IMG/VR virus record: IMGVR_UViG_3300005264_000094
Location: 1-54,129 of that record
Strand: one strand, 5' to 3'
Source of the DNA: a virus
DNA: 54,129 nt
In this document: positions 1,285 to 23,688 of the stretch, piece after piece
Layout: each line of letters starts with the position of its first letter
How positions within the stretch are numbered: the stretch's first letter is position 1
Program-made: the position numbers and the translations under genes
Notes under the pieces: generated by a model
Databases searched by the model: none
Seen by the model: only the letters and a program-made list of their open reading frames with translations
Told to the model about the DNA's origin: nothing

Positions 1285-2004
1285 ATGAGGATAGATATTA
1301 AAGGACCAATTATATCAGACTGTAATCAGAGGTTTTACGATTGGGTTGGGATACCAGCAACATCACCAAAGAAAATAAACTCTTTGATCCAAAATGCTAA
1401 AAAAGGAGAAAAATTAGATGTTTTCATTAATTCTGGTGGTGGATCTGTATTCTCTGGATCTGAAATATTTACAGAACTAAAAAGCTATAAGGGAGAAGTA
1501 GAAGTTAATATAGTTGGAGTTGCTGCTAGTGCTGCTAGTGTAATCGCCATGGCGGGGGACAAAATATTAATGTCTCCTACTGGTCAAATCATGATCCACA
1601 ATGCATCTAGCGGGACATATGGAGATCATACGGCATTAACAAAAACTGCGGATGTATTGAAAGTAATTGATGAAAGTATAGCTAATGCGTATGAACTGAA
1701 AACAGGGAAAAATCATAGTAAACTCCTAGAACTCATGGGAAACGAAACATGGCTAAGTCTAGCAAAAGCAAAGGAACTTAACTTTGTAGATGGTGGCATG
1801 TTCGATGAGGAAACAACCTTTATTAATGTTAGTACTGCAAGTGATGGGACTATACCGCAGGAAGTAATCGAAAAAATGAGAAATAGCATGATGAAAGAAG
1901 GGGTGCTGGTAGAGCCTGAGAATGAAACTCATAAGATACCAGAAAATAATACAGAAGCTAGAACGCTACTTGCAAAAGCTAGAATGAGGTTACTACTTGC
2001 TTAA
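1285..2004 (+). CDS. Phage A prohead protease, ClpP/S14 type
   Basis: A 239-residue Clp-protease-like head maturation protease. It is expected to cut the capsid N-terminal scaffold domain during prohead maturation. The visible S14 features are a GGSVFSGSEI segment near residues 50-60, the nucleophile region AASAASVIAMAGD (about residues 73-85) and the histidine motif QIMIHNAS (about 95-102). The acidic residue of the triad should lie in the following helices. The last 40 residues are a charged tail. It abuts the portal stop and lies 24 bases before the capsid gene, so translational coupling is likely. Confidence is high from the motifs plus gene order. Confidence 0.88.
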   Translation: MRIDIKGPIISDCNQRFYDWVGIPATSPKKINSLIQNAKKGEKLDVFINSGGGSVFSGSEIFTELKSYKGEVEVNIVGVAASAASVIAMAGDKILMSPTGQIMIHNASSGTYGDHTALTKTADVLKVIDESIANAYELKTGKNHSKLLELMGNETWLSLAKAKELNFVDGGMFDEETTFINVSTASDGTIPQEVIEKMRNSMMKEGVLVEPENETHKIPENNTEARTLLAKARMRLLLA

Positions 2005-2028
2005 CAATAAAAAAAATAGGAGGAACAA

Positions 2029-3213: not shown

Positions 3214-3231
3214 GATAATTAGGAGGGTTTT

Positions 3232-3729
3232 ATGCTTACTTTGGACGAAATAAAACTTTATTTGAGGGTAGATGGTGATGATGAGAATCTTCTCATCACA
3301 TCTCTAATCGGATTTAGTGAAGAGGAAATAGAAAACTCAACAGGAGCGACATTTGAAAAATATGGAGGAAAAGAAACTTATAAGATGGCTCAAAGAGTAA
3401 TTGTAGCTGATAGGTTAGCTAGTAGGCTAAATAATAGGCTAGAAATATGGGACAATACCAAGGTCAAAACTGACCTTGGTAACTCACCTAAAGAAAAGCT
3501 TATAAAAAAGATATGGGGGAAAATTTCGCCTATCTATGGATTCTCTAGCGGAGGGGATGCTAACACTACCAAAAGTACTGTTAATTTTAAAATTATGATA
3601 AGAAAAACTGATATTTCTAAAGATAATTGGGTGATATATAAAGGTCAAAGATATGATATAAGCCATATTATGCCCAATTTTGATAGTAATCAATACTTGG
3701 ATTTAAATGTATTTTTATATGAGGAGTAG
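3232..3729 (+). CDS. Fused phage head-tail connector: gp6-like adaptor plus head-closure domain
   Basis: One 165-residue ORF seems to join two neck proteins that are usually separate. Residues 1 to about 75 resemble HK97 gp6/QLRG-type connectors (LYLRVDGDDENLLITSLI, then a helical EIENSTG region). Residues from about 90 resemble the second half of head-tail adaptors of the SPP1 gp16 family (IWGKISPIYG, KIMIRKTD, VIYKGQRYDISHIMP). The N-terminal part of the second domain is missing. Together they would form the ring between portal and tail. The junction coincides with a perfect inverted repeat at 3456-3481. The ORF is intact; whether it is one functional protein is inference. Confidence 0.65.
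   Translation: MLTLDEIKLYLRVDGDDENLLITSLIGFSEEEIENSTGATFEKYGGKETYKMAQRVIVADRLASRLNNRLEIWDNTKVKTDLGNSPKEKLIKKIWGKISPIYGFSSGGDANTTKSTVNFKIMIRKTDISKDNWVIYKGQRYDISHIMPNFDSNQYLDLNVFLYEE
3456..3481 (+). repeat. Perfect 11-bp inverted repeat inside the connector gene
   Basis: Arms 3456-3466 (TACCAAGGTCA) and 3471-3481 are exact reverse complements around the 4-base loop AAAC. The hairpin lies in coding sequence where the two neck domains are joined. There is no T-tract after it, so it does not look like a terminator. Confidence 0.8.
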
Positions 3730-3735
3730 GTATCT

Positions 3736-4161
3736 ATGAGTGATTTAGATGATCTTGCTAATGACTTAGTTAAAATTTCAGAAGAGTTGTCTAGCGGTAA
3801 AGAAGCTAAGAAATTTTTAAAGAAAGAAGCGGGCAAACTAAAAACTAAAACTCTCAGTAATGCAAAATCTAAAGTAAAAGCCCACAGTGGGAATTATTTT
3901 AAATCTATAAAAGCTGGGAATGTCTATGATAGTGAGGAGGGGTTATCTGTAGATGCTTATTCTGCAAGCAGTGTCGCTCATTTGATAGAAAATGGACATA
4001 TCATAAAAGGTAGAAATAAAAAAGACGGATCTGACGGTGAAACACATGGGTTCAAAAAAGGACTACATATATTTGACAATACAGCAAAGGACTATAAAGA
4101 AGAATTTGAGACAAATATAGAGGACTTTAAAAATGGATTATTTGCTAAAAATGGATTTTAA
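3736..4161 (+). CDS. Phage A HK97 gp10-like head-tail protein
   Basis: A 141-residue protein of the HK97 gp10 type, a neck or tail-completion component. The typical pattern is visible: a helical, lysine-rich N-terminal half (KFLKKEAGKLKTKTLSNAK), an HSGNYFKSIK segment (about residues 55-64), then a VAHLIENGH motif (about 80-88), which matches the 'YA..vEfGh' signature of the family. It sits between the connector and the tail terminator, as expected. Confidence is good from motif and synteny; there is no other obvious reading. Confidence 0.75.
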   Translation: MSDLDDLANDLVKISEELSSGKEAKKFLKKEAGKLKTKTLSNAKSKVKAHSGNYFKSIKAGNVYDSEEGLSVDAYSASSVAHLIENGHIIKGRNKKDGSDGETHGFKKGLHIFDNTAKDYKEEFETNIEDFKNGLFAKNGF

Positions 4162-4174
4162 GTGGGTGTAAATA

Positions 4175-4624
4175 ATGACTAAATATAAAGATATACTAGT
4201 AGCCCTGGTTAAACGTTTAGAAATCCTTCCAGGGGGAATAGAGGTAGAAACACAAGATGTTGAAGAAGGGTTTTCTAGACCATCTTTTTTTATAGAACTA
4301 GATAATATAAAAGTTAATGATTTCATGAAAACTTCAAAAATAAGGGATCTAACAGTAAGAATAATTTATTTTCCAACAGATAAACATATCAATCAAGTTG
4401 AACTATTAGATATGCAGGAGTTACTCGAAGAACTATTTATAGAAGATAACTATGTGGAAATACTACCAGAAACAGAAGAAAGAGAAGCTGTCATGGTGGA
4501 AGTAAACAATGCTAAATTTAATAAAAATAAAGATATATTACAGTTTCAATTTGACATAGATCTAGATGAATATTATGTCCGAGAAAACAATTATGAAAAA
4601 ATGGAAAACTTGGAAATTTATTAA
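4175..4624 (+). CDS. Phage A tail terminator protein
   Basis: A 149-residue protein resembling the tail terminator family found in clostridial and related myophages (DUF6838-like). It would cap the tube and sheath at the head-proximal end. It is acidic, with an N-terminal ILVALVKRLEIL helix, a beta strand RPSFFIELDN and DLTVRIIYFPTD near the middle. It is immediately followed by the sheath gene, which is the usual position. The fit is by pattern and order, not by catalytic residues. Confidence 0.65.
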   Translation: MTKYKDILVALVKRLEILPGGIEVETQDVEEGFSRPSFFIELDNIKVNDFMKTSKIRDLTVRIIYFPTDKHINQVELLDMQELLEELFIEDNYVEILPETEEREAVMVEVNNAKFNKNKDILQFQFDIDLDEYYVRENNYEKMENLEIY

Positions 4625-4644
4625 TTTCGTAAAACACGAAATTA
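4622..4644 (+). promoter_or_regulatory. Intercistronic hairpin before the sheath gene
   Basis: TAATTTCGT (4622-4630) and ACGAAATTA (4636-4644) are perfect 9-base arms around AAAAC. The hairpin ends one base before the sheath ribosome binding site region (AGAAGGAGGG). It lacks a T-tract, so it more likely stabilises or processes the mRNA upstream of a highly expressed gene than ends transcription. Confidence 0.6.
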
Positions 4645-4656
4645 GAAGGAGGGAAT

Positions 4657-5760
4657 ATGTGTCCAACAAATAACGGAATGCCCAAACTAGATATAATCTT
4701 TAGAGGGCTTGGAGTAAGTGCGGTAAAAAGAGGAGAGAGAGGCACAGCAGTGTTGATCTTAGTCGATGATACAACTGCTAACTATTTAGCCAAATATAAA
4801 TCAATTGAAGATTTCACAGCTGAAGAGGCAGCTAAATTTGAACCGGAGCACGCGTTGTTTATAAAAGATGCTTTAGAAGGAATACCATTAGAGCTATATG
4901 TGACAACAACAGCTAAGGAAACACCTGATTTAGCCACTACTCTTTTGAAGCTAAAAGGTGCTATTCCTCGAAATTCGTGGGTAGCGATAGCATCCAATAT
5001 TCAAACTAATCAAGATGATCTAATAACCTGGGTAAAAGCTCAAAGAAAAAAAAATAAAAAAAGATATAAAGCTTTCGTATACAAAGGAACTACAACAGAT
5101 AGTATGGGAATAGTTAATTTAACTACTGAAAAAGTAACGTTCAAAGACGACAGAGGAGAAATTACAGGAGATAATGCTATTCCTTTCTTATTGGGGTACT
5201 TGGCAGGGCTTCCATTATCTATGTCAGCAATAGCAAAACCGCTAACTAAATTCGAATGTGTAACGGAGCCAGATGAAAAAGATGATGCTGTTTCAACTGG
5301 AGAATTCATCTTATTTAACGACGAAGGTGTCGTGAAAGTAGCTAGAGGGGTAAACTCATTAGTAACTCTTGGACAAGATGCGACACTGGAAATGACCCAT
5401 ATAAACACTGTAGAAAAGATGGATCTGATCTATTGTGACATTTATAATGCGTGGAGTAACAACTTCAAAGGGAAATATGACAATTTCCTCGATAATCAAA
5501 TGTTATTGTTTTCAGCAATAAATGCATATTTAGGGTTAATAGCATTAGATAAGATATTAGATCCTACGTTTGATAATAAAGTAGAACTTTATCTGGAAAA
5601 ACAAAAATTAGCTAATTATCCAAAATATGGCAAAGAGGTTGTGGATAAATGGAGTGATATTAAAATTATGCAGATGACTGTATCAACTAACGTGTATCCA
5701 AGGACTAATATTAAAATAACAGGAATTATGGAAGATTTATTCATGGACATATTTATGTAA
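4657..5760 (+). CDS. Phage A tail sheath protein
   Basis: A 367-residue contractile tail sheath subunit, which polymerises around the tube and contracts to drive it into the cell. The start LDIIFRGLGVSAVKRGERG followed by a TAVLILVDD strand is typical of short clostridial/PBSX-type sheaths. The C-terminal part ends with strands that interlock neighbours (QMTVSTNVYPRTNIKITGIMEDLFMDIFM). It is shorter than T4-type sheaths but normal for XkdK-like proteins. It lies before the tube gene, as expected. A strong AGAAGGAGGG precedes the ATG. Confidence 0.85.
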   Translation: MCPTNNGMPKLDIIFRGLGVSAVKRGERGTAVLILVDDTTANYLAKYKSIEDFTAEEAAKFEPEHALFIKDALEGIPLELYVTTTAKETPDLATTLLKLKGAIPRNSWVAIASNIQTNQDDLITWVKAQRKKNKKRYKAFVYKGTTTDSMGIVNLTTEKVTFKDDRGEITGDNAIPFLLGYLAGLPLSMSAIAKPLTKFECVTEPDEKDDAVSTGEFILFNDEGVVKVARGVNSLVTLGQDATLEMTHINTVEKMDLIYCDIYNAWSNNFKGKYDNFLDNQMLLFSAINAYLGLIALDKILDPTFDNKVELYLEKQKLANYPKYGKEVVDKWSDIKIMQMTVSTNVYPRTNIKITGIMEDLFMDIFM

Positions 5761-5832
5761 ACGTTTTTCATCGTAGGAACTATCAATAAAGAAAACAAAA
5801 TGCCTTAGAGGGCAAATAAGGAGGTTATTATT

Positions 5833-6240
5833 TTGGGTAAAAAAGCCAATGGGAATAATTATAATAGTGGTAATAAAGGAACCATTTGGATAAATGGAAT
5901 TCCAATTTTAAATTGTTATAAAGCAAATATAGAAAAAAAGATTGATTATGAGGAAATCCCTCATCCAACTAAACCTGGAGGAAAAATAAGAGTAGAAGTA
6001 GGACACACAATAGAAGTCGGCTTTGCATTTAAGAAAACCGTGCTAACTAAAGTAATTGATTTTGAATCTGATGATATTACGATGATTATGACTGATGCAA
6101 ATAACAATAATACAGTTATAGAAACAACAGAAGCCAGTGGGATAACTTTTGACTCTACTGTAATAAAAGCATTTGAAAAGGGTAAAGTAGGAGAAATAGA
6201 GATGTCAGGACAGGCTGAGGACATGAGAAAGTTAGTATAA
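5833..6240 (+). CDS. Phage A tail tube protein (XkdM-like)
   Basis: A 135-residue inner tube protein. Tube subunits stack as hexameric rings through which DNA passes. It resembles XkdM (IWINGIPILNCYKANIEKKIDYEEI, then alternating strands and a final GEIEMSGQAEDMRKLV). The start is TTG at 5833, with AGGAGG a few bases upstream (5819-5825); no ATG fits better. Its position after the sheath and before the chaperone is the standard myophage order. Confidence 0.82.
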   Translation: MGKKANGNNYNSGNKGTIWINGIPILNCYKANIEKKIDYEEIPHPTKPGGKIRVEVGHTIEVGFAFKKTVLTKVIDFESDDITMIMTDANNNNTVIETTEASGITFDSTVIKAFEKGKVGEIEMSGQAEDMRKLV

Positions 6241-6249
6241 GAAATAGTA

Positions 6250-6278
6250 TTCCCCTCTCATTAGTTAATAGAGGGGAA
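6250..6278 (+). promoter_or_regulatory. 9-bp hairpin between tube and chaperone genes
   Basis: TTCCCCTCT (6250-6258) and AGAGGGGAA (6270-6278) are perfect complements around an 11-base loop. It has no T-run, so it could be a weak attenuator or mRNA 3'-end protector that lowers expression after the abundant tube gene. This is inference from position. Confidence 0.6.
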
Positions 6279-6316
6279 AATATAATAATTAAGTGATTAA
6301 TAGGAGAGGATCAAAT

Positions 6317-6769
6317 ATGCAATTACAAGAATTTATAGATAAAGCAAGGGAAAAAAGAGAAAAAAGAATAAAAGTAGTTCAAATAGATATTAAGGATATC
6401 GGTCTTGTAGAATTTCAAAGACCAGAAGAAAAAGATTCTCTTGCTTATATGAATAAGTTAAATAGTTCTAGTAGAACTATTATTGAACATCTAGGAACAA
6501 ATGAAAAAGGAGAACCGCTAAAAAGGGAAATTGAAGAACCTGAGAATGTGGAAGTTATTTTAAACGCATCTACAGAATTTGTATATAAAACATGTTCTTT
6601 TTTTAGAGCAAAAGAATTAAGAGAAGAAGTCAAAGATGGAAATTTTTTTGCTGTTCCTAGTTTATTTTTGGAAACGTCTGAAGTTATTGAGTTAGCTTCC
6701 AAAATAATAGACAAATTTGATAGTCAAAAAGAAAAAGAAAAAGATGAAGAAGAAATAAAAAACTCATAG
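6317..6769 (+). CDS. Phage A tail assembly chaperone (short form, gpG-like)
   Basis: A 150-residue chaperone that should bind the tape measure protein during tail assembly. The reading frame is open from 6293, but the AGGAGAGG at 6302-6309 places the start at ATG 6317. The protein is charged and rich in K and E, ending in a lysine/glutamate tail. The slippery heptamer A AAA AAC sits at 6757-6763 in the correct phase, just before the stop. A -1 slip there yields a longer product (see 6763-6966), as for lambda G/GT and P2 E/E'. XkdN is the likely counterpart. The position, directly before the tape measure, supports this. Confidence 0.8.
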   Translation: MQLQEFIDKAREKREKRIKVVQIDIKDIGLVEFQRPEEKDSLAYMNKLNSSSRTIIEHLGTNEKGEPLKREIEEPENVEVILNASTEFVYKTCSFFRAKELREEVKDGNFFAVPSLFLETSEVIELASKIIDKFDSQKEKEKDEEEIKNS

Positions 6770-6966
6770 GAGGTAGCAGTGACCCAGGGGAACTGTACTG
6801 GGTGTCGCACTATCTCCAAAAAGGACATGAATTAAAGAAGTTATTAAATTTAAGTAATATTGAAAAAAAATTCTATATACAGTCTATGAATATCGAACAT
6901 GAAAAAAAAGTTAAATACGATATTGAAAAAATGAAATTATTTTTTAAAGGTTTGGGGGGTGGGTAA
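6763..6966 (+). CDS. -1 frameshift extension of the phage A tail chaperone (gpGT-like)
   Basis: After the heptamer A AAA AAC (6757-6763) the -1 frame stays open for 67 codons to TAA at 6964-6966. It reads LIGGSSDPGELYWVSHYLQK and then a charged helical domain ending in KGLGGG. There is no separate start or ribosome binding site in the right place, so it is made by frameshifting. A 6-bp hairpin (6782-6787 with 6798-6803) lies downstream of the slip site and may stimulate it, although the spacing is longer than usual. The extension overlaps the tape measure start. Confidence 0.82.
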   Translation, partial: LIGGSSDPGELYWVSHYLQKGHELKKLLNLSNIEKKFYIQSMNIEHEKKVKYDIEKMKLFFKGLGGG

Positions 6967-9070
6967 GATATCTAGAGTAATAAAGACTATCCTAAGATTA
7001 AAAGACGAAATGTCACCTGGTCTCAAAAGGAATTCTGAAGCTACAAAAAGATTAAGTGAAAAAGTGAAAAAATCAAGAGATCAAATTAAAAAATTTCAAA
7101 TTGCAAACACAAAAGCAACAGAAGGATTGAAAGAACAAAATGATAAAATAAAAGCTTTGACTTCTAGGAAAAACAAAGAAAGTAACACTATGAAAAAACT
7201 AGCAGTACAAATGCAAAAGTATAAAAATCAGACTGGACTAACTTCTAAACAAATTGTTAAAAATAATCAAAAACTAAAAGAAGCTCGTAGTAGATATGAT
7301 AAATTAGGAGCTTCAGTCTCTAGTCTAAATAAGTCACTAAAAGGTGCTGATAGTTCAGTAAAAAAATATAGTGAAAGTATTAAATCAAATAATAAAGAAA
7401 TTGGATCTATAAACAATGAAATAAGTAAATACACTAAAAAAATAAAAAAAAATATAGCTACTCAAAAAGAAGCACAAAGTGCTGTGAATAGATGGGGTAA
7501 AGGTGCTATTAAAAGTATAGATAAAGTTATAGCTAGATCTGTTAAATTAGGTCTTGTTACGGCAGGTGTCGTAGCTGCATTAGGAGCTAAAATGGGATTT
7601 AGCGAAGCTATGGATATGGAAGGATATAAAATGCAGTTGGAAACGGCTGTTAAAGATACTGAAAAAGCTGGGGAACTTATGAGTAAAGCTGTTGATTTTG
7701 CTGATAGAACACCGTTTGAAACAGGAGATATAGTAGAAGCTACAGCTACAATGGAAATGTATGGTCTTTCTTCTACTAGGTGGTTATCAGATATAGCCGA
7801 TATGGCAGGATCAACAAATAAACAAATTGGTGATGCTACAGAGGCTATGGTAGATTCAAGCGTAGGAGAGTTTGAAAGATTAAAACAATTCGGGATATCC
7901 AAAGATATGATAATGACAGCATCAGCTAAAAAATACGGGGATAAAATAGTCTTTAATGCTAAAGGACAAATGCTCGATCAAGTTAAGATGCAAACTGTAC
8001 TCCAAGAACTTATGCAAGAGAAATTTAAAGGAGGAGCAGAAAAGCAAGCCAGGACAATGAAGGGTCTTTTATCTACGGTAACAGGAAGCGTGAAATCATC
8101 ATTGAAAGAAATAATGGGGATTCAAAAAGACGGAACTATCAAGCAAGGTAGTATGTATGAAAAATTAAAAGAGCAAATAAAAGGAGTAACCAATACTCTT
8201 CTAAAATGGAAAGAAGACGGGACTGTCACAAAGATAGCCTCTAATATAACTGAAGCAGTCATGAAAGTAATAAATATCATAAAAAAACTATTTAATTTCT
8301 TTCAGAAATATAGAGAGATAATAGAACTGGTACTAGTGCTTGTAGGCGTTATATATACTACTGTAAAAGCATTTAGAGCACTAGAAGCTATAATGGTAGC
8401 GGTAAATATAGTTACAGGGCTTCTAAATGGAACTCTAGCAGTCTCACCACTTGGGTTAATAGCAATAACCATTGGTCTAGTAGTCGGAGCATTGTACCTA
8501 CTATGGAGACATATGGACAGTATAATAGCAGTCTTTAAAAGTGCTTGGGATTGGATAAAGAATTTGATAAGTGGGACAAATAATTTTGCATTAATGTTAG
8601 CTGGACCAATTGCACCACTGCTCTTGTTAATCAAACATTTTGACAAGATCAAAGAGGCGGCCAGTAAAGCTTTTGGATGGGTTAAAAAAATATTTGGTGT
8701 AGATAACAAAGATAAAGAATTCAATGTAACGATGAATAAAAAAGAAAACTCTAAGATTGATTTTCAAAATGGCAGTCCAGGAAAACATATGGAACAATAT
8801 GCAAAAGGTGGGATTGCTACAAAACCAAGTATATTTGGAGAAGCTGGAGCAGAAATAGCAATACCTCTTAATCAATCTAGCAGATCTAAAGATCTTTTAG
8901 GTAAAGCTAATAATATAATAGGTGGGAATGATGAAAAATCGAAAGCTGAAGGTAAAATTAATAATTTTCATTTTCATGGTGATGTATATGGATTTGAAGA
9001 TTTTAAAGAGGTTTTAGCTAAAGGGTTTTATGAAATTATTCAAGAAAATAATTCAAATGTGGTGAGGTAG
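6959..9070 (+). CDS. Phage A tape measure protein
   Basis: A 703-residue tail length ruler, which occupies the tube lumen and helps DNA enter. Residues 1 to about 185 are a long lysine-rich coiled coil. A small hydrophobic stretch follows (about 193-210, LGLVTAGVVAALGAKMGFS). The middle is an alpha-helical TP901-type tape measure core (TPFETGDIVEATATMEMYGL, about 251-270). Membrane segments follow near residues 453-475, 495-518 and 545-560. Near the C-terminus is the GGIATKPSIFGEAGAEIAIPL motif found in many tape measures. The start is GTG 6959, overlapping the chaperone extension. Confidence 0.88.
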   Translation: MGKISRVIKTILRLKDEMSPGLKRNSEATKRLSEKVKKSRDQIKKFQIANTKATEGLKEQNDKIKALTSRKNKESNTMKKLAVQMQKYKNQTGLTSKQIVKNNQKLKEARSRYDKLGASVSSLNKSLKGADSSVKKYSESIKSNNKEIGSINNEISKYTKKIKKNIATQKEAQSAVNRWGKGAIKSIDKVIARSVKLGLVTAGVVAALGAKMGFSEAMDMEGYKMQLETAVKDTEKAGELMSKAVDFADRTPFETGDIVEATATMEMYGLSSTRWLSDIADMAGSTNKQIGDATEAMVDSSVGEFERLKQFGISKDMIMTASAKKYGDKIVFNAKGQMLDQVKMQTVLQELMQEKFKGGAEKQARTMKGLLSTVTGSVKSSLKEIMGIQKDGTIKQGSMYEKLKEQIKGVTNTLLKWKEDGTVTKIASNITEAVMKVINIIKKLFNFFQKYREIIELVLVLVGVIYTTVKAFRALEAIMVAVNIVTGLLNGTLAVSPLGLIAITIGLVVGALYLLWRHMDSIIAVFKSAWDWIKNLISGTNNFALMLAGPIAPLLLLIKHFDKIKEAASKAFGWVKKIFGVDNKDKEFNVTMNKKENSKIDFQNGSPGKHMEQYAKGGIATKPSIFGEAGAEIAIPLNQSSRSKDLLGKANNIIGGNDEKSKAEGKINNFHFHGDVYGFEDFKEVLAKGFYEIIQENNSNVVR

Positions 9071-9478
9071 ATGAGGGAAATATATTTTGCAATTGAAGAT
9101 GAGGTTCTCCAATTGCCTTATGTTAATGAAAAGATTGAAGTTGGTGAAGGTCTTAATACAGAAGAATTTGAGACTGTAGATGGGAAAACATTAACATTAA
9201 TAGGGAATAAAGGGAATAGGACTATCAGTATTAATAGTTTTTTCCCTACAAAACAATATAGATGGCTTAGTTTCAATTCAAAACTTTCTACAGAATGTCT
9301 AGATTTTTTTAAAAGGAATAGAAAAAAAGTATTAAGGATTGTTTATGTAAATGGAGAAGAAACTTTGTGTAATATGTTGTGTATTATATCAAATTACACA
9401 GTGGCACCTAAAAAAAATGGAGACTATAACTATTCTTTAGAAATTAAAGAATATATAGATCCAAAGGAGGTATCTTAG
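9071..9478 (+). CDS. Phage A baseplate/tail protein, XkdP-like without LysM
   Basis: A 135-residue protein whose QLPYVNEKIEVGEG start and ISINSFFPTKQYRWLSF centre resemble the N-terminal domain of XkdP, the PBSX protein between tape measure and hub. The peptidoglycan-binding LysM domain of XkdP is absent. It ends in a strand pattern (NYTVAPKKNGDYNYSLEIKEY) typical of tail-end proteins. It abuts the tape measure (ATG at 9071) and shares a base with the next start. It is probably the junction between tube tip and hub. Confidence 0.62.
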   Translation: MREIYFAIEDEVLQLPYVNEKIEVGEGLNTEEFETVDGKTLTLIGNKGNRTISINSFFPTKQYRWLSFNSKLSTECLDFFKRNRKKVLRIVYVNGEETLCNMLCIISNYTVAPKKNGDYNYSLEIKEYIDPKEVS

Positions 9479-10428
9479 TGGTTACTATAAATTTAATCAG
9501 AGAAAATAAAAAAAATGATATAACTAATCTTTCAGGGAATATAAGTTTGAGTGACAGCCTAGATACTTTAGGAGCTGCTTTAAATTTTGATATTGCTAGA
9601 AATTTCAATGATCCAAATTTCGCGACTTCTGAAATTGTAGAAGCTGGGAATATTATTGAATTTAAAAATGAAGGGAAAGTTGTTTTTATTGGGTCCATCA
9701 TAACAATAGGAACTGAAAAATTTAAGAAAAGTATAAAATGTTTAGACTTTTCTTTTTATTTGAACAAAAATAAGCTTATTAAACAATTTAAAAATATAAG
9801 TGCATCTGATGCAATAAAAAATATGTGTGATCAGATAGACATAAAAATAGGGGATATTGATAATATTCCAACTGCTATAACTAAGATCTATAAAAATAAG
9901 ACAGTCGCAGAAATAATAAAAGATATTCTTATACAAGTTTTAAATGAAACAGGCGATAAATACAAATTAGAAATAAATAATGAAGCATTAGATGTAAAAA
10001 AACACAGGCTCATAGAAGCTAAAACTAAATATAATTTTTGGGGGAAAATAACCAAAAATGAAGACATAACAGATATGAAAAATGTGATTTTAGTAACCTC
10101 TAATAATCAAGATGATGTAAACACATTGGGAAAAGCTGTTGACAAGGCTAATATTGATAAATATGGAAAATTACAAGAGATTGTAGAAGTCGAGCCAAAG
10201 GACATTTCGAAAGTCCGTAATATAGCAAATAAGAAGCTCAAAGAGTTAAACAAAGTATTTATAAGTGTTAATGTTGAAACTTTAGGAGATAATTCCCTGA
10301 GATCTGGAAGGATAATAGAAGTTATAAATAAAGAATTCAATTTAAACAGTAAATATTTAATTAAAAGTACTAATCATAAATATTCTAAAGGGAATCATAC
10401 CACCAGTTTAAATTTAGAGATGAACTAA
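9478..10428 (+). CDS. Phage A baseplate hub protein, XkdQ/gpD-like
   Basis: A 316-residue hub protein of the XkdQ (T4 gp27/P2 gpD-like) type. It should form the trimeric base that carries the spike. Typical elements are a first domain of strands (ISLSDSLDTLGAALNFDIA), the KTVAEIIKDIL helix (about residues 141-151), and a late SGRIIEVINKEFNLNSKYLIKSTNHKYSKGNHTTSLNLEM segment. The start is GTG 9478, overlapping the preceding stop. The last base overlaps the next gene's start, which suggests coupled translation. Confidence 0.75.
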   Translation: MVTINLIRENKKNDITNLSGNISLSDSLDTLGAALNFDIARNFNDPNFATSEIVEAGNIIEFKNEGKVVFIGSIITIGTEKFKKSIKCLDFSFYLNKNKLIKQFKNISASDAIKNMCDQIDIKIGDIDNIPTAITKIYKNKTVAEIIKDILIQVLNETGDKYKLEINNEALDVKKHRLIEAKTKYNFWGKITKNEDITDMKNVILVTSNNQDDVNTLGKAVDKANIDKYGKLQEIVEVEPKDISKVRNIANKKLKELNKVFISVNVETLGDNSLRSGRIIEVINKEFNLNSKYLIKSTNHKYSKGNHTTSLNLEMN

Positions 10429-10904
10429 TGGGGGAATATGGAGCTAAATTAGCTAAACTTTGGAAGGAACTGGAAAACCAAGAAATAATAGAATCAACAA
10501 TTGGAAAAGTCATTAGTCCTCCTCCAAACCTTAGAGTTTCTATATGGAATAACAGTGTAATATTAGAACCAACTCAACTTTATATGAATGACAGGTTATT
10601 CGATGATCATACAAGAAAATTTGAAATAGATGGGGAAGTATCTGAAATTGACTTAAATTTAGAAAAAAATGAAGTAACAGATATAATAATCCCCCCTGTT
10701 TTACCTTTTATTCCTGCCCCTGCCCCACCTCCACCTTGGGCTGTTAAAGGTAAGGGAGCTATGAAAGGTAAAGGAACATATAAAACTAATGGGACGATAG
10801 TAAATACAGATACATTAAAAAAAGGTGATCTTGTAAAACTTACCCCAGCAGGAGTTGGACAGATATGGTTTGTGGATTTTAAGGTAAGAAAATTGAAGGA
10901 ATAG
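10428..10904 (+). CDS. Phage A baseplate protein with DUF2577 (XkdR-like)
   Basis: A 158-residue protein with an XkdR/DUF2577 core. The C-terminal signature is LKKGDLVKLTPAGVGQIWFVDFKV, matching 'LkkGD.V.l.p...gQ.ffVldkv'. A proline-rich then glycine/lysine-rich insert lies between the halves (FIPAPAPPPPWAVKGKGAMK and onwards, about residues 92-118). The protein belongs to the spike and hub region. It ends 11 bases before the -35 of the promoter at 10916, so the tail operon is interrupted here. Confidence 0.68.
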   Translation: MGEYGAKLAKLWKELENQEIIESTIGKVISPPPNLRVSIWNNSVILEPTQLYMNDRLFDDHTRKFEIDGEVSEIDLNLEKNEVTDIIIPPVLPFIPAPAPPPPWAVKGKGAMKGKGTYKTNGTIVNTDTLKKGDLVKLTPAGVGQIWFVDFKVRKLKE

Positions 10905-10915
10905 CAGTTTGGACT

Positions 10916-10944
10916 TTGACAATTTAATATCTGAGGGATATACT
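10916..10944 (+). promoter_or_regulatory. Consensus sigma-70 promoter inside the tail operon
   Basis: TTGACA (10916-10921) and TATACT (10939-10944) are separated by exactly 17 bases. This is close to perfect consensus and stands out within a late operon. It lies upstream of the 97-residue gene at 10982 and, with the terminator at 11278, forms a self-contained transcription unit. Confidence 0.75.
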
Positions 10945-10981
10945 ATAGAAAATCTAAAGTTTTAAATATTCGGGAGGTCTA

Positions 10982-11275
10982 ATGATGTTAAAAACAAAAA
11001 TAAAGTTTGTTTTTATAGGGGTTAAGCCAGAAAGGCAAACAAAAATTAAAGAACTAACAGAAAAAACTTTAAAAGGCATTAAAAGAATTAATTTTAAGAA
11101 AATAAAAAAAGCAGAAGCTCATATTGCTAGTATAGTTTGCTTTAATGACGAATCAAAAGAGACTATAACTTTCCAAATTAATTTTATTGGGAGAACGTTT
11201 CATATTTTTTCTATTGCTATGGATATAGAAGAAAACTCTGAAATAATTATAGAAGATCTTAAGGCACTAAATTAA
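10982..11275 (+). CDS. Small unknown protein in a moron-like unit
   Basis: I do not recognise this 97-residue protein. It is lysine-rich in the first half (KIKELTEKTLKGIKRINFKKIKK) and has beta strands in the second (ETITFQINFIGRTFHIFSIAM), with no membrane segment or cysteine cluster. Two ATGs (10982 and 10985) follow GGGAGG; the second has the better spacing. The gene has its own consensus promoter (10916-10944) and a strong terminator (11278-11317), and it splits the XkdR- and XkdS-like genes, which are usually adjacent. It is therefore likely to be expressed from the prophage independently of the late genes. A role in superinfection exclusion or lysogenic conversion is inference only. Confidence 0.75.
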   Translation: MMLKTKIKFVFIGVKPERQTKIKELTEKTLKGIKRINFKKIKKAEAHIASIVCFNDESKETITFQINFIGRTFHIFSIAMDIEENSEIIIEDLKALN

Positions 11276-11277
11276 AG

Positions 11278-11317
11278 AAAAACCTCAGATATTAAATTTG
11301 TCTGAGGTTTTTTATTG
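11278..11317 (+). terminator. Strong rho-independent terminator closing the moron unit
   Basis: A 12-base stem (11278-11289 with 11301-11312) encloses an 11-base loop, with T-rich sequence from 11308 on. Because the left arm begins AAAAA, it could work on both strands. Late transcripts would need antitermination or a new start to pass it. Confidence 0.85.
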
Positions 11318-11338
11318 CAAAATTTAGGAGATGATTGG

Positions 11339-11779
11339 ATGGGTATATTTCCAAATGCAAATTTAGAAATTGAAGAGGAACAGCAAATAATAAATTTTAA
11401 AGATACTAAAGAACCTCTTTTTGACTTTAAAAAAAAGCAAATAGTGATCATGGATGGGAAAATCATATATTGCACTTACAGACAAAAAATAGAGCAATGG
11501 GTCGAATTAATAATTCAAACTACAGTTAACAAATATAAGGTGTATAAAGATACTGGTTTTGGATTCTCAAAACTATATGAATATAGAGGTCATCAAATAT
11601 TTGCTTCTAATTTCGGTATTTCTGAACTTAAAAGAGAGATGAAAGAAAAATTAGAAGGACACAAGGAAATTATATTAGCAAAGAATATAAAAATTTCTCA
11701 AGACTTCAATGTTTTAAGAATAGAATTAACTTTAGAACTAACTGAAGAAGAGTTAGAAAAAGAGGTGATTATAGAGTGA
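11339..11779 (+). CDS. Phage A baseplate wedge protein, XkdS/DUF2634 (gp25-like)
   Basis: A 146-residue protein of the XkdS family, related to T4 gp25/P2 gpW, a baseplate wedge component with a lysozyme-like fold but no enzyme activity. Typical parts are DGKIIYCTYRQKIEQWVELIIQTTVNKYKVY, then an FGFSKLYEYRG motif. The frame is open from 11315 within the terminator, but TTAGGAG at 11324-11330 favours ATG 11339. It overlaps the next gene by four bases. Confidence 0.72.
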   Translation: MGIFPNANLEIEEEQQIINFKDTKEPLFDFKKKQIVIMDGKIIYCTYRQKIEQWVELIIQTTVNKYKVYKDTGFGFSKLYEYRGHQIFASNFGISELKREMKEKLEGHKEIILAKNIKISQDFNVLRIELTLELTEEELEKEVIIE

Positions 11780-12867
11780 ATGAAGAGTATAAAGCCCCAC
11801 TAGTGGAAAATATACACAAAGGTATGTTAAGTGATATATCTGAAGACTACGAAAAAGAGGTTGGAACCTTTACAAATGATCTAACAAAAACTTATGCGAT
11901 ACAGTCATACCAGGCAAGAAAAAAAATAGAACTTTTATTCAGCAAATTAGACATAAATAATTATCATGATACAGAGTTAGATAGGTTTGTATTTCAGAGA
12001 AAAGGGATAAAAAGGAAAGAAAGTAATACCTCTTTAGGAGTTATTACTGCAAAAGGGAGCGGAACTGTAACTATTGGAGATCTCTTTGAAACTGAATCTG
12101 GAACTCAATTTAAAGTTGCCGAAACAGTAGTCATAATTGACAACGGTGATGTAAAAATAGAGGCTGTTATTCCAGGATTAAAAGGGAATGTAGGAGCTAA
12201 TACTATCACTTTAATTCCTATAACCATTCAAGGAATAACAGAAATTACAAATACTTTCCCAACCATAGATGGGTACGACCAAGAAACCAATGAATCATTG
12301 ATTGAAAGGTATTTAATCGATATTCAAAAACCGCCTACCTCTGGGAATATATACCATTATATGCAGTGGTCAAGAGAAATTGTAGGAGTAGGAGATTCTA
12401 AAATAGATCCCCTCTGGAACGGTAATAATACGGTTCAGATAGTAATAATAGATGATCAAAAACTTCCAGCAACAACCGAATTAATTGAAAGAGTTCAAAA
12501 CTATATAGATCCAAAAGGTGAAAACAACTCTACTTGGGGTGCAGGGTATGGACAAGCCCCTATAGGAGCTTACTGTAGTGTGATAAGTGCTATCCCTAAA
12601 AACATAAGTGTTGTTAGTGCTCTAACATTAGAAATTGGATATACAATAGATCAGGTTAAACCATGGGTAGATGAAGCAATAAGAAAAAATTTAAAAGAAA
12701 TAGCTTTTTTAAAAAATAGTGTTTCCTATGCGATCCTTGCAAGTAAAATTTTAAATGTAGAAGGCATTAGTGACTGGTCATCATTTACTATAAATGGAGG
12801 AACTAAGAATATCAGCATAGGAGACAAAGAAGTAGCAGTTCTAGAGAGTGTGATTTTGAATGAATAA
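11776..12867 (+). CDS. Phage A baseplate J-like protein (XkdT)
   Basis: A 363-residue gpJ/XkdT family wedge protein. It shows the family order: N-terminal helices (QSYQARKKIELLFSKLD), the middle region with VITAKGSGTVTIGDLFETESGTQFKVAE, and the NVGANTITLIPITIQGITEITN segment that precedes NESLIERYL. The late TIDQVKPWVDEAIRKNLKEI helix is also typical. The start is GTG 11776, four bases before the preceding stop ends. The length matches XkdT. Confidence is high. Confidence 0.88.
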   Translation: MNEEYKAPLVENIHKGMLSDISEDYEKEVGTFTNDLTKTYAIQSYQARKKIELLFSKLDINNYHDTELDRFVFQRKGIKRKESNTSLGVITAKGSGTVTIGDLFETESGTQFKVAETVVIIDNGDVKIEAVIPGLKGNVGANTITLIPITIQGITEITNTFPTIDGYDQETNESLIERYLIDIQKPPTSGNIYHYMQWSREIVGVGDSKIDPLWNGNNTVQIVIIDDQKLPATTELIERVQNYIDPKGENNSTWGAGYGQAPIGAYCSVISAIPKNISVVSALTLEIGYTIDQVKPWVDEAIRKNLKEIAFLKNSVSYAILASKILNVEGISDWSSFTINGGTKNISIGDKEVAVLESVILNE

Positions 12868-13399
12868 ATTAAATTTGTTAGAAAATCTACATAAGGTCTT
12901 CAGAGGTGATAATTATATAGATAACTTAATGGGAGCCTCTGGGAAAGAATTAGATGATATAGAAAACAAAATAGACCAGCTAGGAAAGGAGTTTTTCTTT
13001 GATACTATGAGTCCTGTAGGTATAGCAGTTCTAGAAAATCAACTTGATTTTAAAGCTACAGGGGACCCCATAGAAGGTAAAAGGGAACAGTTAGAAGCTA
13101 GATGGAAAACAGCAGGTAAATGTGATTTAGAATTATTAAAAATAATAGCTAATTCATGGAGAAATGGTGAGGTTTCAGTTCTTTTTACCAATGCAGTTAT
13201 AGAAATAACTTTTATTTCTATTGTAGGTATACCCAATAACATAGAAGCTTTAAAACGTTCTTTAGGAGAAGCTAAACCAGCACACTTACCAATTAATTAT
13301 ACATTTAAATATCGTACCTGGGGGATGCTACTTCCTAAAACATGGGGTTATTATAATCAATATACATGGGGTCAAGTCTTAAAGCAGGAGGTTATATAG
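12860..13399 (+). CDS. Phage A tail protein, gpI/XkdU-like (DUF2313)
   Basis: A 179-residue DUF2313-type protein, linking wedges to fibres like P2 gpI. The first half is helical (NLLENLHKVFRGDNYIDNLMG). The middle has EGKREQLEARWKTAGKCDLELLKIIANSW, a pattern found in XkdU. The end (LPINYTFKYRTWGMLLPKTWG and a repeated TWG) matches the family's conserved C-terminus. It overlaps the baseplate J gene by eight bases and abuts the fibre gene. Confidence 0.78.
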   Translation: MNKLNLLENLHKVFRGDNYIDNLMGASGKELDDIENKIDQLGKEFFFDTMSPVGIAVLENQLDFKATGDPIEGKREQLEARWKTAGKCDLELLKIIANSWRNGEVSVLFTNAVIEITFISIVGIPNNIEALKRSLGEAKPAHLPINYTFKYRTWGMLLPKTWGYYNQYTWGQVLKQEVI

Positions 13400-14236
13400 A
13401 TGAGCGGAACTACACCAAATTTAAATTTGGTTAAGCCAGGAGAAAATGGGACAGCCGATATAAAAGTTATTGATCAGAATATGGAAATAATAGATGTCTG
13501 GGCGGGAGAAAAAGAAACAGAATTAAGCGGTAAAGAACCTAAATTCACTAAAAATAGTGGGTTTAATCTTGGTATATCACATCTAGTAAATTCAATAAGT
13601 AAAACATTAGTTGCTTCAGCATATGCTGTTAAATTAGCTTATGATAGGGCGAGCCTAGGAGTAACAAATGCATCCACTGCACAAACTAAAGCTGATGATG
13701 CTTACAATTTAGCAAATGGAAAAGAGCCTACTTTTATTAAAAACAATGGGTTTAATAGAGTTATGACTAACTTAGTAACTTCAACCAGTACTACATTAGT
13801 TGCATCAGCAGCAGCAGTTGGAATAGCATACAATAAGGGAAAAGAGGCACTAGGTTTAACGGTTATAAATAAAAATGCAATACAGAATAATGCAGACCAA
13901 ATAAGAAATTTATCTAAAACAGTAAATGATGTTACGATACTTTGGGAATCAAATGTGGGGTTAGGATCCGGCTTGATAACTTTATCAGATAGTATATTTA
14001 ATTACAAAATTATAGAGGTTCTGAGCTCTAGAGATGAAAAAGATTATTTTAAAATGTCTACTATAAGAGTATCTGATTATAATAAATATATTAAAGATGA
14101 TATAGGACGAGGAATAGGGGTTGGAAGAAGTGACTATTGGTTTTTTAGATTTTCAGATGATGGATTGACGTTATCTGAAAAGGGAGGGAATTCTGAAGAT
14201 TCAGTAATTTGGGAAATAAGAGGATTAAAGTCATAA
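13400..14236 (+). CDS. Phage A tail fibre protein
   Basis: A 278-residue fibre protein. The N-terminal segment (TPNLNLVKPGENGTADIKVIDQNMEIID) is typical of the part that docks to the baseplate. Two repeats follow, each beginning with a GKEPKFTKNSGFN or GKEPTFIKNNGFN motif (about residues 48 and 111) and continuing with a TLVASAYAV-type helix. The same GKEPxFxKNNGFN motif occurs in the phage B fibre at 52588, which points to exchange between fibre genes. The C-terminus is beta-rich and ends in a WEIRG motif, perhaps a host-contact tip. Confidence 0.75.
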   Translation: MSGTTPNLNLVKPGENGTADIKVIDQNMEIIDVWAGEKETELSGKEPKFTKNSGFNLGISHLVNSISKTLVASAYAVKLAYDRASLGVTNASTAQTKADDAYNLANGKEPTFIKNNGFNRVMTNLVTSTSTTLVASAAAVGIAYNKGKEALGLTVINKNAIQNNADQIRNLSKTVNDVTILWESNVGLGSGLITLSDSIFNYKIIEVLSSRDEKDYFKMSTIRVSDYNKYIKDDIGRGIGVGRSDYWFFRFSDDGLTLSEKGGNSEDSVIWEIRGLKS

Positions 14237-14264
14237 AAAAATCTTAATTTTATAAGGGGGAAAA

Positions 14265-14834
14265 ATGAAATATACACTTACAAATCAACCGCAACAAATA
14301 AGTGAAACAAAGGGAGAAATTGAAAATTTTTCAAGTTATACGATCGTATTAGCGGCAGGAACAACTCCACCGACGGAAAGTACAGCTAGAATAACAGTAA
14401 GTCCGTGGAAGAGTTATCCTTTTAAAACATCTCAAGGAGAATCTTTGTATGCTTGGATTCCAAACATAGCTGAAGGGAATTCAATTGAGGTTTCAGTCGT
14501 AAATTTTCCTTTGGGAGAAGAAGGGGGTGATGAAGTAGCGAAACTCTCGGAACAAATACAGAATTTAAGCGGTTATGTGAATGTCTTAGCGGTAGAAGAT
14601 ATGTATGCAATTGATATTCTAAATGCAAGTAATAAAAATATAGAAATTGAAACTCGATGTAATTTATATATAGAACTTACGTATACTTACGAGTCTGCGA
14701 TAACGTGGTTCAACGGCATTAATTGGTTAAGCGGTTTTGCACCAACACTATATCAAGGCAAGACTTATGGAATTAACTTCTCCACTAAAGATGGTGGAGC
14801 AAGTTGGAACGGTATGTTAATAGGCGGTTGGTAG
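14265..14834 (+). CDS. Tail fibre accessory protein sharing its C-terminal half with the gene at 53772
   Basis: A 189-residue protein. Residues 1-95 are beta-rich, with small-domain character (TPPTESTARITVSPWKSY). From about residue 96 (EQIQNLSGYVNVLAVEDMYA) the DNA is identical to the last 104 bases of the window, where it follows an unrelated N-terminus. The C-terminal half is therefore an exchangeable module ending in WNGMLIGGW. It is preceded by a GGGG ribosome binding site and followed after one base by the receptor-binding gene. The exact function is unknown; a fibre-tip adaptor or decoration is likely. Confidence 0.7.
   Translation: MKYTLTNQPQQISETKGEIENFSSYTIVLAAGTTPPTESTARITVSPWKSYPFKTSQGESLYAWIPNIAEGNSIEVSVVNFPLGEEGGDEVAKLSEQIQNLSGYVNVLAVEDMYAIDILNASNKNIEIETRCNLYIELTYTYESAITWFNGINWLSGFAPTLYQGKTYGINFSTKDGGASWNGMLIGGW
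14549..14652 (+). repeat. 104-bp direct repeat, copy A
   Basis: Identical, base for base, to 54026-54129, which is the end of the window. The match starts at GGAACAAATACAG and is cut off by the window edge, so the true repeat may be longer. The flanking left sequences differ (CTC versus ACG before the match). Confidence 0.95.
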
Positions 14835-14835
14835 T

Positions 14836-16362
14836 ATGACACCATTACAAAGAATAATGCAAAAATGGAAACCGAGAAGGTATATTAACCTTATTGAGAA
14901 TGGAGACTTTCTAAATGATGTTAATAATTGGTCGGGATCTCAGTCCATATTAAGTGTAACCGATAGTAAACTCACGTGTAAAATTAGCTCAGGCTATTAT
15001 TTTGGAGGTGCCAGGAATAACAATTTAAATGGTTCTGTGCTGGGACATAAATATTACTCATTCATAAAGGCACATGTCAATAATAATGATTGTAGTGAAT
15101 TGAAATTATCTCTAAATACCTATGGTTCGTCTAATATAAATAGTATATCCAACCCTATCAAAGATGTCGTATATTTCATAAGTGGGATAAAAACCTGTGA
15201 AACTGTACCAACATACGCAGCAATGTATCATTCTTATGCCACAAGCGAAATTGCAGAAGGAAAAGAAGCTATTCTACATGAATCTGCGACGATTGACCTA
15301 ACTGAACTAGGATTAGAAGATAGATCGCAAGAGTGGTGTGATAAGTACATTGCACCAAATGTTGACTATTGGAATTTCGTTAATGAGTTAGAAAACGGGG
15401 ATCTCTTAAATGGGAGAGATAAATGGGTGGTATCTGATGCAACATACACATTATCTTCTGAAAGCATAGTCGCGATGCCCACTGATATATACGGTAGAGT
15501 TACAAATTATTTTCAATTCGGTAATAATGATGAATATGCCGATCACAACTTTTATCATTGTGCTATGCTGAAAACAAATTCAACTAAAGTAAGATTGCAT
15601 CTAAACGATGGAACTCGGCAAAGTGAGCTACCTCCTACCACATTAGCCTCCTTCACACTAGTCTCAGGAATATTAAAAATACAAAGTGGATATACTACTA
15701 TAAAACTGAAAGTACAAGATAATGATCCTGATAACAGGAACGAATTTGAAGTTAAAGACTTTAAATTAATTGACTTAACTAAACTAGGATTGGACAACGT
15801 AACCGCAGAATGGTGTGATCAAAACATAGCACCTTATGTGAACATGGAAAGATATGATAATCTGATTGAGAATGGAGATTTTAGTGATGGGTTAGATGGG
15901 TGGCTTGACTATAACACCAGTGCAACTGCAACTTCCAACATTCTCTCTATATTCCCTAACAACGTAAACATAACACACTACCATGAAAAAAATATTAGTA
16001 ATCTCGCAATTGGTAACAAATATTATATATGCGGTAACGTAGAAGAGTTAGTTAATTGCTCCATAGAGTTGCAGTTTTGGAATAGAATAGAAAATGGTGG
16101 TTTTGAACGAAGTTTAAAAATGTTAACCTCTTCTTCAGGTATTGTCAGTACTATTTTTACACCCTCCGGAAAGTATCATAACCCATACGCAAGATATAGG
16201 TGGACGTTATTTAAGGATGGTAGTGCTGTATTTTTAGGTACTGATGAAGTTGCAAAAATAAGTAAGTGTATTGTAATTAATCTAACAGCAAAATACGGAA
16301 TGGGAAATGAACCAAGCAAAGAATGGTGTGATGAAAATATTGCACCCTATATCAATTACTAG
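14836..16362 (+). CDS. Probable receptor-binding protein with three tandem repeats
   Basis: A 508-residue protein built of three repeats of about 160 residues. Each begins with a variant of LIENGDFLNDVNNW (near residues 18, 183 and 341) and ends with a variant of EWCDxxIAPY (near 166, 324 and 495). The ENGDF...W start and beta-rich body resemble carbohydrate-binding modules of the CBM4 type, although the sequence is divergent. Its position at the end of the fibre cluster, before the lysis gene, and its repeats suggest that it binds sugars on the cell surface. It has no signal peptide. The repeats differ enough that they are old duplications. Enzymatic activity is not evident. Confidence 0.7.
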   Translation: MTPLQRIMQKWKPRRYINLIENGDFLNDVNNWSGSQSILSVTDSKLTCKISSGYYFGGARNNNLNGSVLGHKYYSFIKAHVNNNDCSELKLSLNTYGSSNINSISNPIKDVVYFISGIKTCETVPTYAAMYHSYATSEIAEGKEAILHESATIDLTELGLEDRSQEWCDKYIAPNVDYWNFVNELENGDLLNGRDKWVVSDATYTLSSESIVAMPTDIYGRVTNYFQFGNNDEYADHNFYHCAMLKTNSTKVRLHLNDGTRQSELPPTTLASFTLVSGILKIQSGYTTIKLKVQDNDPDNRNEFEVKDFKLIDLTKLGLDNVTAEWCDQNIAPYVNMERYDNLIENGDFSDGLDGWLDYNTSATATSNILSIFPNNVNITHYHEKNISNLAIGNKYYICGNVEELVNCSIELQFWNRIENGGFERSLKMLTSSSGIVSTIFTPSGKYHNPYARYRWTLFKDGSAVFLGTDEVAKISKCIVINLTAKYGMGNEPSKEWCDENIAPYINY

Positions 16363-16372
16363 GAGGGAAAAT

Positions 16373-16645
16373 ATGTATGGAAAAATTATAGATGATAAAA
16401 TAAAGTTAGGTCTTCCTCATACGGGAGTTCTAGCAGACGGAAGACAGGTGAGTGGGTATAACTTACTACCACAGGAAAACCTATTAGCAGAAGGTTGGCG
16501 AGTAGTCCAAGAGGTCAAACCTGAATATGATACTACAACTCAAATGCTAAAGGAATCTACTAGAGAGATAGTAGATGGTGAGATAGTGATAACATATATA
16601 GCAATAGAAAGACCAGTAGAAGAATTTGAATTAGAACAAATCTAA
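16373..16645 (+). CDS. Small tail-fibre-associated protein
   Basis: A 90-residue protein; the frame is open from 16307, but AGGAGGG at 16361-16367 sets ATG 16373. It has the pattern of small proteins encoded after fibre genes in Clostridia-like phages (KPEYDTTTQMLKESTREIVDGEIVITYIAIE), where a residue list such as 'YDxxTQxLxE' is common. The same 18-base start region (AGGAGGGAAAATATGTAT) recurs at 16717-16734 before the endolysin. A hairpin (16633-16654) overlaps the stop. Confidence 0.6.
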   Translation: MYGKIIDDKIKLGLPHTGVLADGRQVSGYNLLPQENLLAEGWRVVQEVKPEYDTTTQMLKESTREIVDGEIVITYIAIERPVEEFELEQI

Positions 16646-16654
16646 ATTTGTTCT
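16633..16654 (+). promoter_or_regulatory. 9-bp hairpin before the endolysin gene
   Basis: AGAACAAAT (16633-16641) and ATTTGTTCT (16646-16654) pair perfectly around CTAA. The stem includes the stop codon of the preceding gene and has no T-tract. It may protect or attenuate the mRNA between fibre and lysis genes. Confidence 0.55.
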
Positions 16655-16728
16655 TATGGAGGGAAATAAAGAAAAAGAGTTAAAAATAACTTTTGTTAAC
16701 TTTACTTTTAGAGAATAGGAGGGAAAAT

Positions 16729-17253
16729 ATGTATTATGGAACTTTAGATAAAAGGGTTATTCCTTTAAAAATATATGCTATAACAAAGGCTCTATATGGC
16801 CATACACCTATAGAGTATCAAAAATCTATATTCTATCTTATATGGGGAACTGTAGCTGTAGAAACAAGATGTAGCACATATAAAGATAAAACAAGAGGCT
16901 ATGCTGGTGAAGGACTTACTCAATTTGATAAGATACCTTTTTCAGACATAAAAAAAAGAACAAGCAGCAGCACAAGAAATACCATTGCAAGTAAATTTGC
17001 TATGGATTTAAAAAAATGGAAATGGGAAAATCTATCATTTAATGACAGTAAAGCTTTAATCATGAGTTTTTGTTTTTATAAGTTAGTACGAGAGAAGTTC
17101 CCAGCTCCTTATAGTGCTCAGGCTCATGCTAAATACTGGAAAAAGTACTATAACACAGTTTTAGGAAAAGGTACTACAGAGAAGTATGTAGCTGCTTTTA
17201 AAAAGTATTGCGATCCGGATATGTTTGAAAAATTAGAAAAGTGGGCTATATAG
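16729..17253 (+). CDS. Endolysin, lysozyme/transglycosylase-like
   Basis: A 174-residue cell-wall hydrolase. The start at ATG 16729 follows AGGAGGG; the frame is open further upstream (16693), but without a better signal. The likely catalytic glutamate is E45 in AVETRC, and a GEGLTQFD motif (residues 60-67) follows 15 residues later, as in lysozyme-like and lytic transglycosylase folds (E...GxGLxQf). A helical C-terminal half (KALIMSFCFYKLVREK, AHAKYWKKYYN) completes a compact single domain. There is no signal peptide, so release needs a holin; candidates are the small membrane proteins at 33768 and 34028. The stop lies in the terminator. Confidence 0.68.
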   Translation: MYYGTLDKRVIPLKIYAITKALYGHTPIEYQKSIFYLIWGTVAVETRCSTYKDKTRGYAGEGLTQFDKIPFSDIKKRTSSSTRNTIASKFAMDLKKWKWENLSFNDSKALIMSFCFYKLVREKFPAPYSAQAHAKYWKKYYNTVLGKGTTEKYVAAFKKYCDPDMFEKLEKWAI

Positions 17254-18785: not shown

Positions 18786-18815
18786 TTGACAACGTACCGT
18801 TATTGGAGGTATACT
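18786..18815 (+). promoter_or_regulatory. Sigma-70-type promoter for the AbrB/par region
   Basis: TTGACA (18786-18791) and TATACT (18810-18815) are 18 bases apart. A partly paired leader hairpin (CGAAAGG 18821-18827 with CTTTTCG 18838-18844) follows before the ribosome binding site. It should drive the regulator at 18853 and perhaps the genes beyond. Confidence 0.65.
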
Positions 18816-23676: not shown

Positions 23677-23688
23677 AATTTAGTCCTC

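Follow-up and report, generated by a model that had tools for sequence, protein, structure and literature searches.

A moron cassette in a phage tail operon carries a terminator that is probably gated by the origin of the transcript

We analyzed a viral DNA stretch of 54,129 nucleotides (IMG/VR record IMGVR_UViG_3300005264_000094; "the window" refers to this whole stretch) and found in its tail operon a moron cassette whose terminator is probably gated by the origin of the transcript, as judged from sequence comparison and folding models. A 16-bp inverted repeat, overlooked in the initial annotation, ties the spacer of the cassette promoter to the terminator. At two other sites in tail operons, Fusobacteriota prophages carry sixteen further cassettes of the same design with different cargo.

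Results

The initial annotation described a promoter, a ribosome binding site, a 97-residue orphan open reading frame (ORF) and a terminator with a 12-bp stem between XkdR-like and XkdS-like genes, and our inspection of the sequence confirmed this arrangement. The features of the locus are as follows.

9478 to 10428: YqbQ/XkdQ-like gene, preceding the DUF2577 (XkdR-like) gene
10428 to 10904, plus strand: upstream late gene, XkdR-like (DUF2577; Pfam PF10844, E = 6.8e-11), which stops 6 nt before the left arm
10889 to 10900, plus strand: left flanking repeat AAAATTGAAGGA, a copy of the target/Shine-Dalgarno region, by comparison with the empty sites of L002, L035 and L216
10911 to 10936, plus strand: left arm GGACTTTGACAATTTAATATCTGAGG, the proposed antiterminator strand, identical at 26 of 26 positions in two other Fusobacteriota genomes
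10916 to 10944, plus strand: cassette promoter TTGACA-17-TATACT (TTGACA at 10916 to 10921, TATACT at 10939 to 10944), with the left-arm core as its spacer
10921 to 10936, plus strand: left-arm core, 16 nt that perfectly complement the 5' arm and loop of the terminator
10972 to 10977, plus strand: Shine-Dalgarno sequence GGGAGG of the moron gene, from sequence
10982 to 11275, plus strand: moron gene (ATG at 10982) for a 97-aa orphan protein; relatives, none found
11278 to 11314, plus strand: intrinsic terminator with a perfect 12-bp stem (11278 to 11289 with 11301 to 11312), an 11-nt loop and a T run
11283 to 11298, plus strand: right pairing block (terminator 5' arm and loop), complementary to 10921 to 10936
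11319 to 11330, plus strand: right flanking repeat AAAATTTAGGAG, containing the Shine-Dalgarno sequence of the next gene, by comparison with the empty sites
11339 to 11779, plus strand: downstream late gene, XkdS-like sheath initiator (DUF2634/Sheath_initiator; Pfam PF10934, E = 1.1e-13), with a likely start at ATG 11339

A sequence scan showed that the cassette promoter matches the consensus at 11 of 12 bases. Promoters of this quality are not rare (4 observed in the window against 3.45 expected in shuffles), and with about 3.5 of them per shuffled window the match alone says little. The unusual part is the position ahead of the ORF, as only about 0.002 such promoters are expected in the 60 nt ahead of any given start. 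The terminator was absent from our first terminator scan, which allowed loops of at most 8 nt, and was found by an inverted-repeat search. Positions 10921 to 10936 fill most of the promoter spacer and are the exact reverse complement of positions 11283 to 11298. The left arm lies upstream of the predicted start of cassette transcription, expected at about 10951. Since the arm fills the promoter spacer, RNA made from the cassette promoter would lack it.

The unit had been read as a moron, and comparison with related phages supports this reading: the gene is absent from otherwise syntenic relatives and has its own promoter and terminator at the sequence level. In L002, L035 and L216, whose neighboring genes are 80 to 90% identical, the tail genes abut directly. 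The same site is also empty in the more distant Cetobacterium prophages L036 to L038, in the other Fusobacteriota prophages L219 to L223 and in Fusobacterium phage phiHugo, so that a homologue is by no means always present at this place in syntenic phages. Because the site is empty in all close syntenic relatives examined, we consider the cassette an insertion. The same relatives suggest that the host of the window phage belongs to the Fusobacteriota. Comparison of the boundaries with phages lacking the insertion revealed that the edges of the insert are imperfect copies of the Shine-Dalgarno region of the next gene, with AAAATTGAAGGA on the left and AAAATTTAGGAG on the right, compared to AAAGTTAGGAGG at the empty site of L002 and L216. 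We searched for an exact target-site duplication; the direct repeats at this insertion and at that of L128, described below, are imperfect and stem from the Shine-Dalgarno region.

The gene itself, annotated as unknown, has no identifiable relative in viral contigs, genome contigs, phages, plasmids, Pfam, PHROGs or PADLOC. A single match to the protein in 98 Fusobacteriota genomes (E = 4.8e-4) was judged on inspection to be due to chance, as it lies inside an ORF resembling an M16 peptidase. The AlphaFold model is of low confidence (pLDDT 62.6; b-a-b-b-b) and too uncertain for an assignment. HPF/YfiA chains top the fold list for this model (Foldseek E = 0.25, Z = 5.4), a result that is meaningless alone. 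The Pfam matches of the protein include no ribosome-hibernation family (HPF/RaiA) even at E = 10, the only match being YcaO_C at 0.042.

We then considered the predicted folding of the transcripts. In equilibrium folding, RNA starting at or after 10921 formed the terminator with a probability of 0.999, compared to about 0.003 to 0.016 for RNA starting at 10890 to 10905. For RNA starting at 10700 the probability rose to as much as 0.56, so the folding depends on context and the fold argument is weaker for it; the stretch from 10700 is coding and hence presumably translated, and occupied by ribosomes, during transcription. A terminator probability of 0.27 for L249 counts against the argument as well. 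The arm:terminator duplex was predicted at -29.9 kcal/mol, compared to -19.6 kcal/mol for the terminator hairpin, and it extends over the terminator 3' arm and the U tract through many G.U pairs. When growing transcripts were folded, the terminator 5' arm was held in the antiterminator pairing with a probability increasing from 0.70 to 0.97 before the 3' arm emerged. The left arm and the terminator hairpin are mutually exclusive in the predicted folding, as in a pairing-type antiterminator. A search of Rfam returned no family at the gathering score and only four sub-threshold matches (E = 0.73 to 0.85). Stable partners are common in any case: in an energy-only scan of 85 terminators, a partner at -24 kcal/mol or better was present upstream of 38 and downstream of 36, and partner duplexes of the HK97 moron terminators reach -26 to -27 kcal/mol. 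Since the scan does not distinguish the two sides, duplex energy alone cannot serve as evidence.

A motif-blind scan of 334 terminators for an exactly complementary arm matched the window, L128, L161 and L165, while the complement and reverse controls of the same scan gave no match; such an arm was also sought in P2, HK97 and phiHugo, and none was found. In a DNA search of 98 Fusobacteriota genomes, the 26-bp arm GGACTTTGACAATTTAATATCTGAGG was present unchanged in two other genomes, and allowing up to 3 mismatches yielded no further copy among them. L128 carries the identical 26-bp arm 558 nt ahead of a near-identical terminator at what we call site B, located between the spike and the next baseplate gene of another tail operon. 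The remaining site-B phages are empty. In L136 and L263, which have no cassette at site B, only the 3' half of the terminator is left (TGTCTGAGGTTTTTTATTG), identical to the right end of the window cassette. In L129, a copy of GGACTTTGACAATTTAATATCTGAGG adjoins a transposase-like ORF. As a separate observation, the site-B gap of L206, L208 and L262, otherwise empty, contains several similar long hairpins of the AAAAGCCTTGACT...AGTCAAGGCTTTT type, repeated between the spike and the next gene. Candidates set aside were L130, whose 22-nt match has no matching terminator; 29 viral contigs with AATTTAATATCTGAGG, consistent with chance, in which an exact search found no matching terminator arm downstream; and 3 viral contigs with GGACTTTGACAATTTAAT, also consistent with chance, in which no matching terminator arm follows by inspection.

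The arms of L161 and L165 are wholly different from that of the window, and following them up led to a third location, site C, present in nine Fusobacteriota genomes as well as in further viral records and extending from a late-control gene D-like gene to the spike. Site-C phages L241 to L250, L255 and L257 hold 15 cassettes with different arm sequences, so that 17 cassettes were compared in total: the window, L128 and these 15. The site-C arm, typically GGACAATKACAAYTRAATATAATAACTGTGA, starts within about 30 nt of the gene D stop codon, and the distance from arm to terminator ranges from 0.4 to 2.4 kb across cassettes. In four site-C cassettes the arm is followed by a perfect 12/12 promoter and in a fifth by an 11/12 promoter; in several, the 12/12 promoter begins some 7 nt downstream of the arm. 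A simple promoter scan detected no good promoter in several other cassettes, L128 included. Where the promoter begins after the arm, as at site C, or the arm fills its spacer, as in the window, the cassette's own transcripts would lack the arm. Few phages with an empty site C are known. One relative without a cassette, L252, has a terminator-like hairpin right after the gene D stop codon (about 4314 to 4350 in the orientation of the spike gene) with no obvious left arm; this short contig is perhaps a decayed prophage.

The cargo consists of accessory genes of the kind expected in morons. The Pfam matches include a SocA/Panacea antitoxin (6.5e-17) with a sub-threshold PemK-like toxin next to it, a second PemK toxin (3.6e-12), a Bro-N protein (2.7e-23) and a membrane protein of the DUF2335 family. 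A lipoprotein-like protein had only sub-threshold Pfam matches, and cargo with no Pfam match comprised a small protein followed by a 204-aa acetyltransferase-looking protein, as well as short hydrophobic peptides. Two such peptides make up the cargo of L128, the first resembling Fst-type toxins by eye. The region L128:3681-4250 encodes this Fst-like short peptide and the second membrane peptide, with a strong hairpin after each, and may be a type I toxin-antitoxin unit.

Across cassettes, arms and terminators vary together, as in TAATATCTGAGG with CCTCAGATATTA, AATAACTGTGA with TCACAGTTATT and AATGACTGTGA with TCACAGTCATT. Over the 12-bp core, 97.2% of cells were paired and 4 pairs had changed on both sides, a result drawn from a small set of independent states (6 distinct rows of the core); slid controls gave 26 to 54% paired and 0 both-sided changes. 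The energies of each arm with its own terminator beat permutations (0 of 20,000 as good), within site C alone too. Four phages carry tandem cassettes, and in these each arm has the base matching its own terminator at the diagnostic position; the energies agree with own matching except in L241, in which the arm of cassette 1 pairs equally with terminator 2. Moreover, the mRNA-sense duplex was more stable than the antisense duplex in 16 of the 17 cassettes (mean, -30.1 versus -22.4), which fits RNA with G.U pairs and not DNA repeats. The covariation and the strand asymmetry, observed in the sequences like the architecture, the insertion and the complementarity, are evidence that arm-terminator pairing is under selection.

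The strand asymmetry also bears on an alternative that we consider unlikely, namely that the cassette is a small mobile element whose matching ends serve as terminal inverted repeats or recombination sites, a feature of the DNA to which antitermination would be incidental. An identical 26-bp left end and a near-identical right end do occur at two unrelated sites with different cargo, and short direct repeats of the Shine-Dalgarno region flank both insertions. However, antisense duplexes were the weaker ones in 16 of 17 cassettes, and the DNA match is confined to the inner 16 to 20 nt; the outer bases differ, and this outer part pairs as RNA through G.U. The inverted repeats do not lie at the outermost ends, as those of a transposable element or MITE would, and neither the window cassette nor that of L128 contains a transposase. 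In addition, the left arm is half a terminator located upstream of a promoter, and site-C cassettes remain at one place, each with its own arms.

Predicted stems of at least 20 pairs enclose the cargo in read-through RNA, which would also suit processing by RNase III or silencing of the cargo in late mRNA, with disruption of the terminator as a side effect. We regard this explanation as quite improbable: the perfect block spans the 5' arm and loop of the terminator, the very part that must be covered to prevent termination, and the stem does not include the ribosome binding site of the cargo. It is not mutually exclusive with gating of the terminator. Finally, late transcription could pass because a protein or RNA of the phage acts on RNA polymerase in a Q-, put- or EAR-like manner, or because the terminator leaks. 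Such passage has precedent in lambdoid phages, as is generally known, and in Tn916 (PMC11658703) but would leave the cassette-specific covarying arms unexplained and is very improbable here.

The rest of the record contains further features. Positions 1 to 17250 and 34513 to 54129 hold two different tailed-phage structural modules, with two portal proteins and two baseplate J proteins; because these modules are distinct, the record probably joins two neighboring prophages or represents a composite element. Between 17272 and 22780, a tyrosine recombinase, a ParA-type ATPase and a Rep_3-type plasmid initiator occur together, suggesting a phage-plasmid lifestyle for part of the record. The minus strand at 22805 to 26456 has genes for a PIN-domain protein and for a repressor of the S24/HTH (CI-like) type. 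A second 11/12 promoter, TTGACA-18-TATACT, is located at 18786 to 18815, upstream of small ORFs and near several hairpin-terminator-like sites.

Discussion

From the sequences and the folding models we infer how the cassette promoter is used in the lysogen, where transcription terminates and how read-through by pairing takes place in lytic growth. In a lysogen, RNA from the cassette promoter would lack the arm, the hairpin would form, and transcription would stop before the late tail genes. During lytic growth, polymerase coming from the late promoter would make the arm first. The emerging 5' half of the terminator would then pair with the waiting arm, no hairpin would form, and late transcription would proceed into xkdS and beyond. 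According to this model, the terminator would insulate the cassette in the lysogen yet let late transcription through, and cargo could be swapped while each cassette retains its matched arm-terminator pair. The initial annotation had raised the question of how late transcription continues past the terminator, to which arm pairing in the read-through RNA offers a specific predicted answer. The 2.4-kb spacing between arm and terminator in some cassettes is long for co-transcriptional pairing and counts against the model, as does the scarcity of known empty examples of site C.

Morons of the HK97 gp15/gp22 type are similar in that an extra gene with its own terminator lies between late tail genes. 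The HK97 record annotates both moron products, putative terminators and the antitermination protein Gp69. In contrast to HK97, which encodes Gp69 and in which, as in P2, no exact complementary arm was found, the device for passage would here be the RNA of the cassette itself. In attenuators of the trp, T-box and riboswitch types, the 5' arm of the terminator is captured by RNA made earlier, which blocks the hairpin, as predicted for the cassette. However, attenuator leaders lie near the terminator and sense a ligand, a tRNA or a ribosome, whereas the cassette strand lies 0.4 to 2.4 kb upstream and its input would be the origin of transcription. The read-through protection of IS10 and IS50 relies on a sequence, present only in read-through RNA, that alters folding and blocks translation of the transposase. 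Both systems change the folding of read-through RNA; the cassette is predicted to block termination and not translation.

Tn916 canT, HK022 put and EAR are processive antitermination RNAs described or proposed to act on RNA polymerase, across unrelated terminators (PMC11658703; PMC9378689). They resemble the cassette in combining a mobile element with an insulating terminator and a cis-acting RNA that lets its own transcription pass (PMC11658703; PMC9378689), and they differ from it in that the cassette arm is specific to its own terminator through base pairing. Our literature search, which covered open-licence papers only, found no description of a terminator gated by transcript origin; morons and pairing-type antiterminators are each of known kinds, and their combination was not found in that literature.

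A moron that brings its own terminator would be expected to block the late operon in which it lies. In lambdoid phages, a phage-wide antiterminator lets late transcription past moron terminators. If our model is correct, the cassettes would provide a self-contained RNA solution that needs no protein, which would explain how toxin-antitoxin and other accessory genes are swapped in structural operons. Half a terminator upstream of a promoter is a sequence signature by which moron slots could be sought in other genomes, and the arrangement is a design for genetic parts that are insulated yet transparent. On balance, we favor the view that this is a general device in Fusobacteriota phages: exchangeable cassettes, single or in tandem, would each be sealed by a terminator that only read-through RNA cancels, so that accessory genes, toxin-antitoxin systems for example, would act as plug-in modules in late operons.
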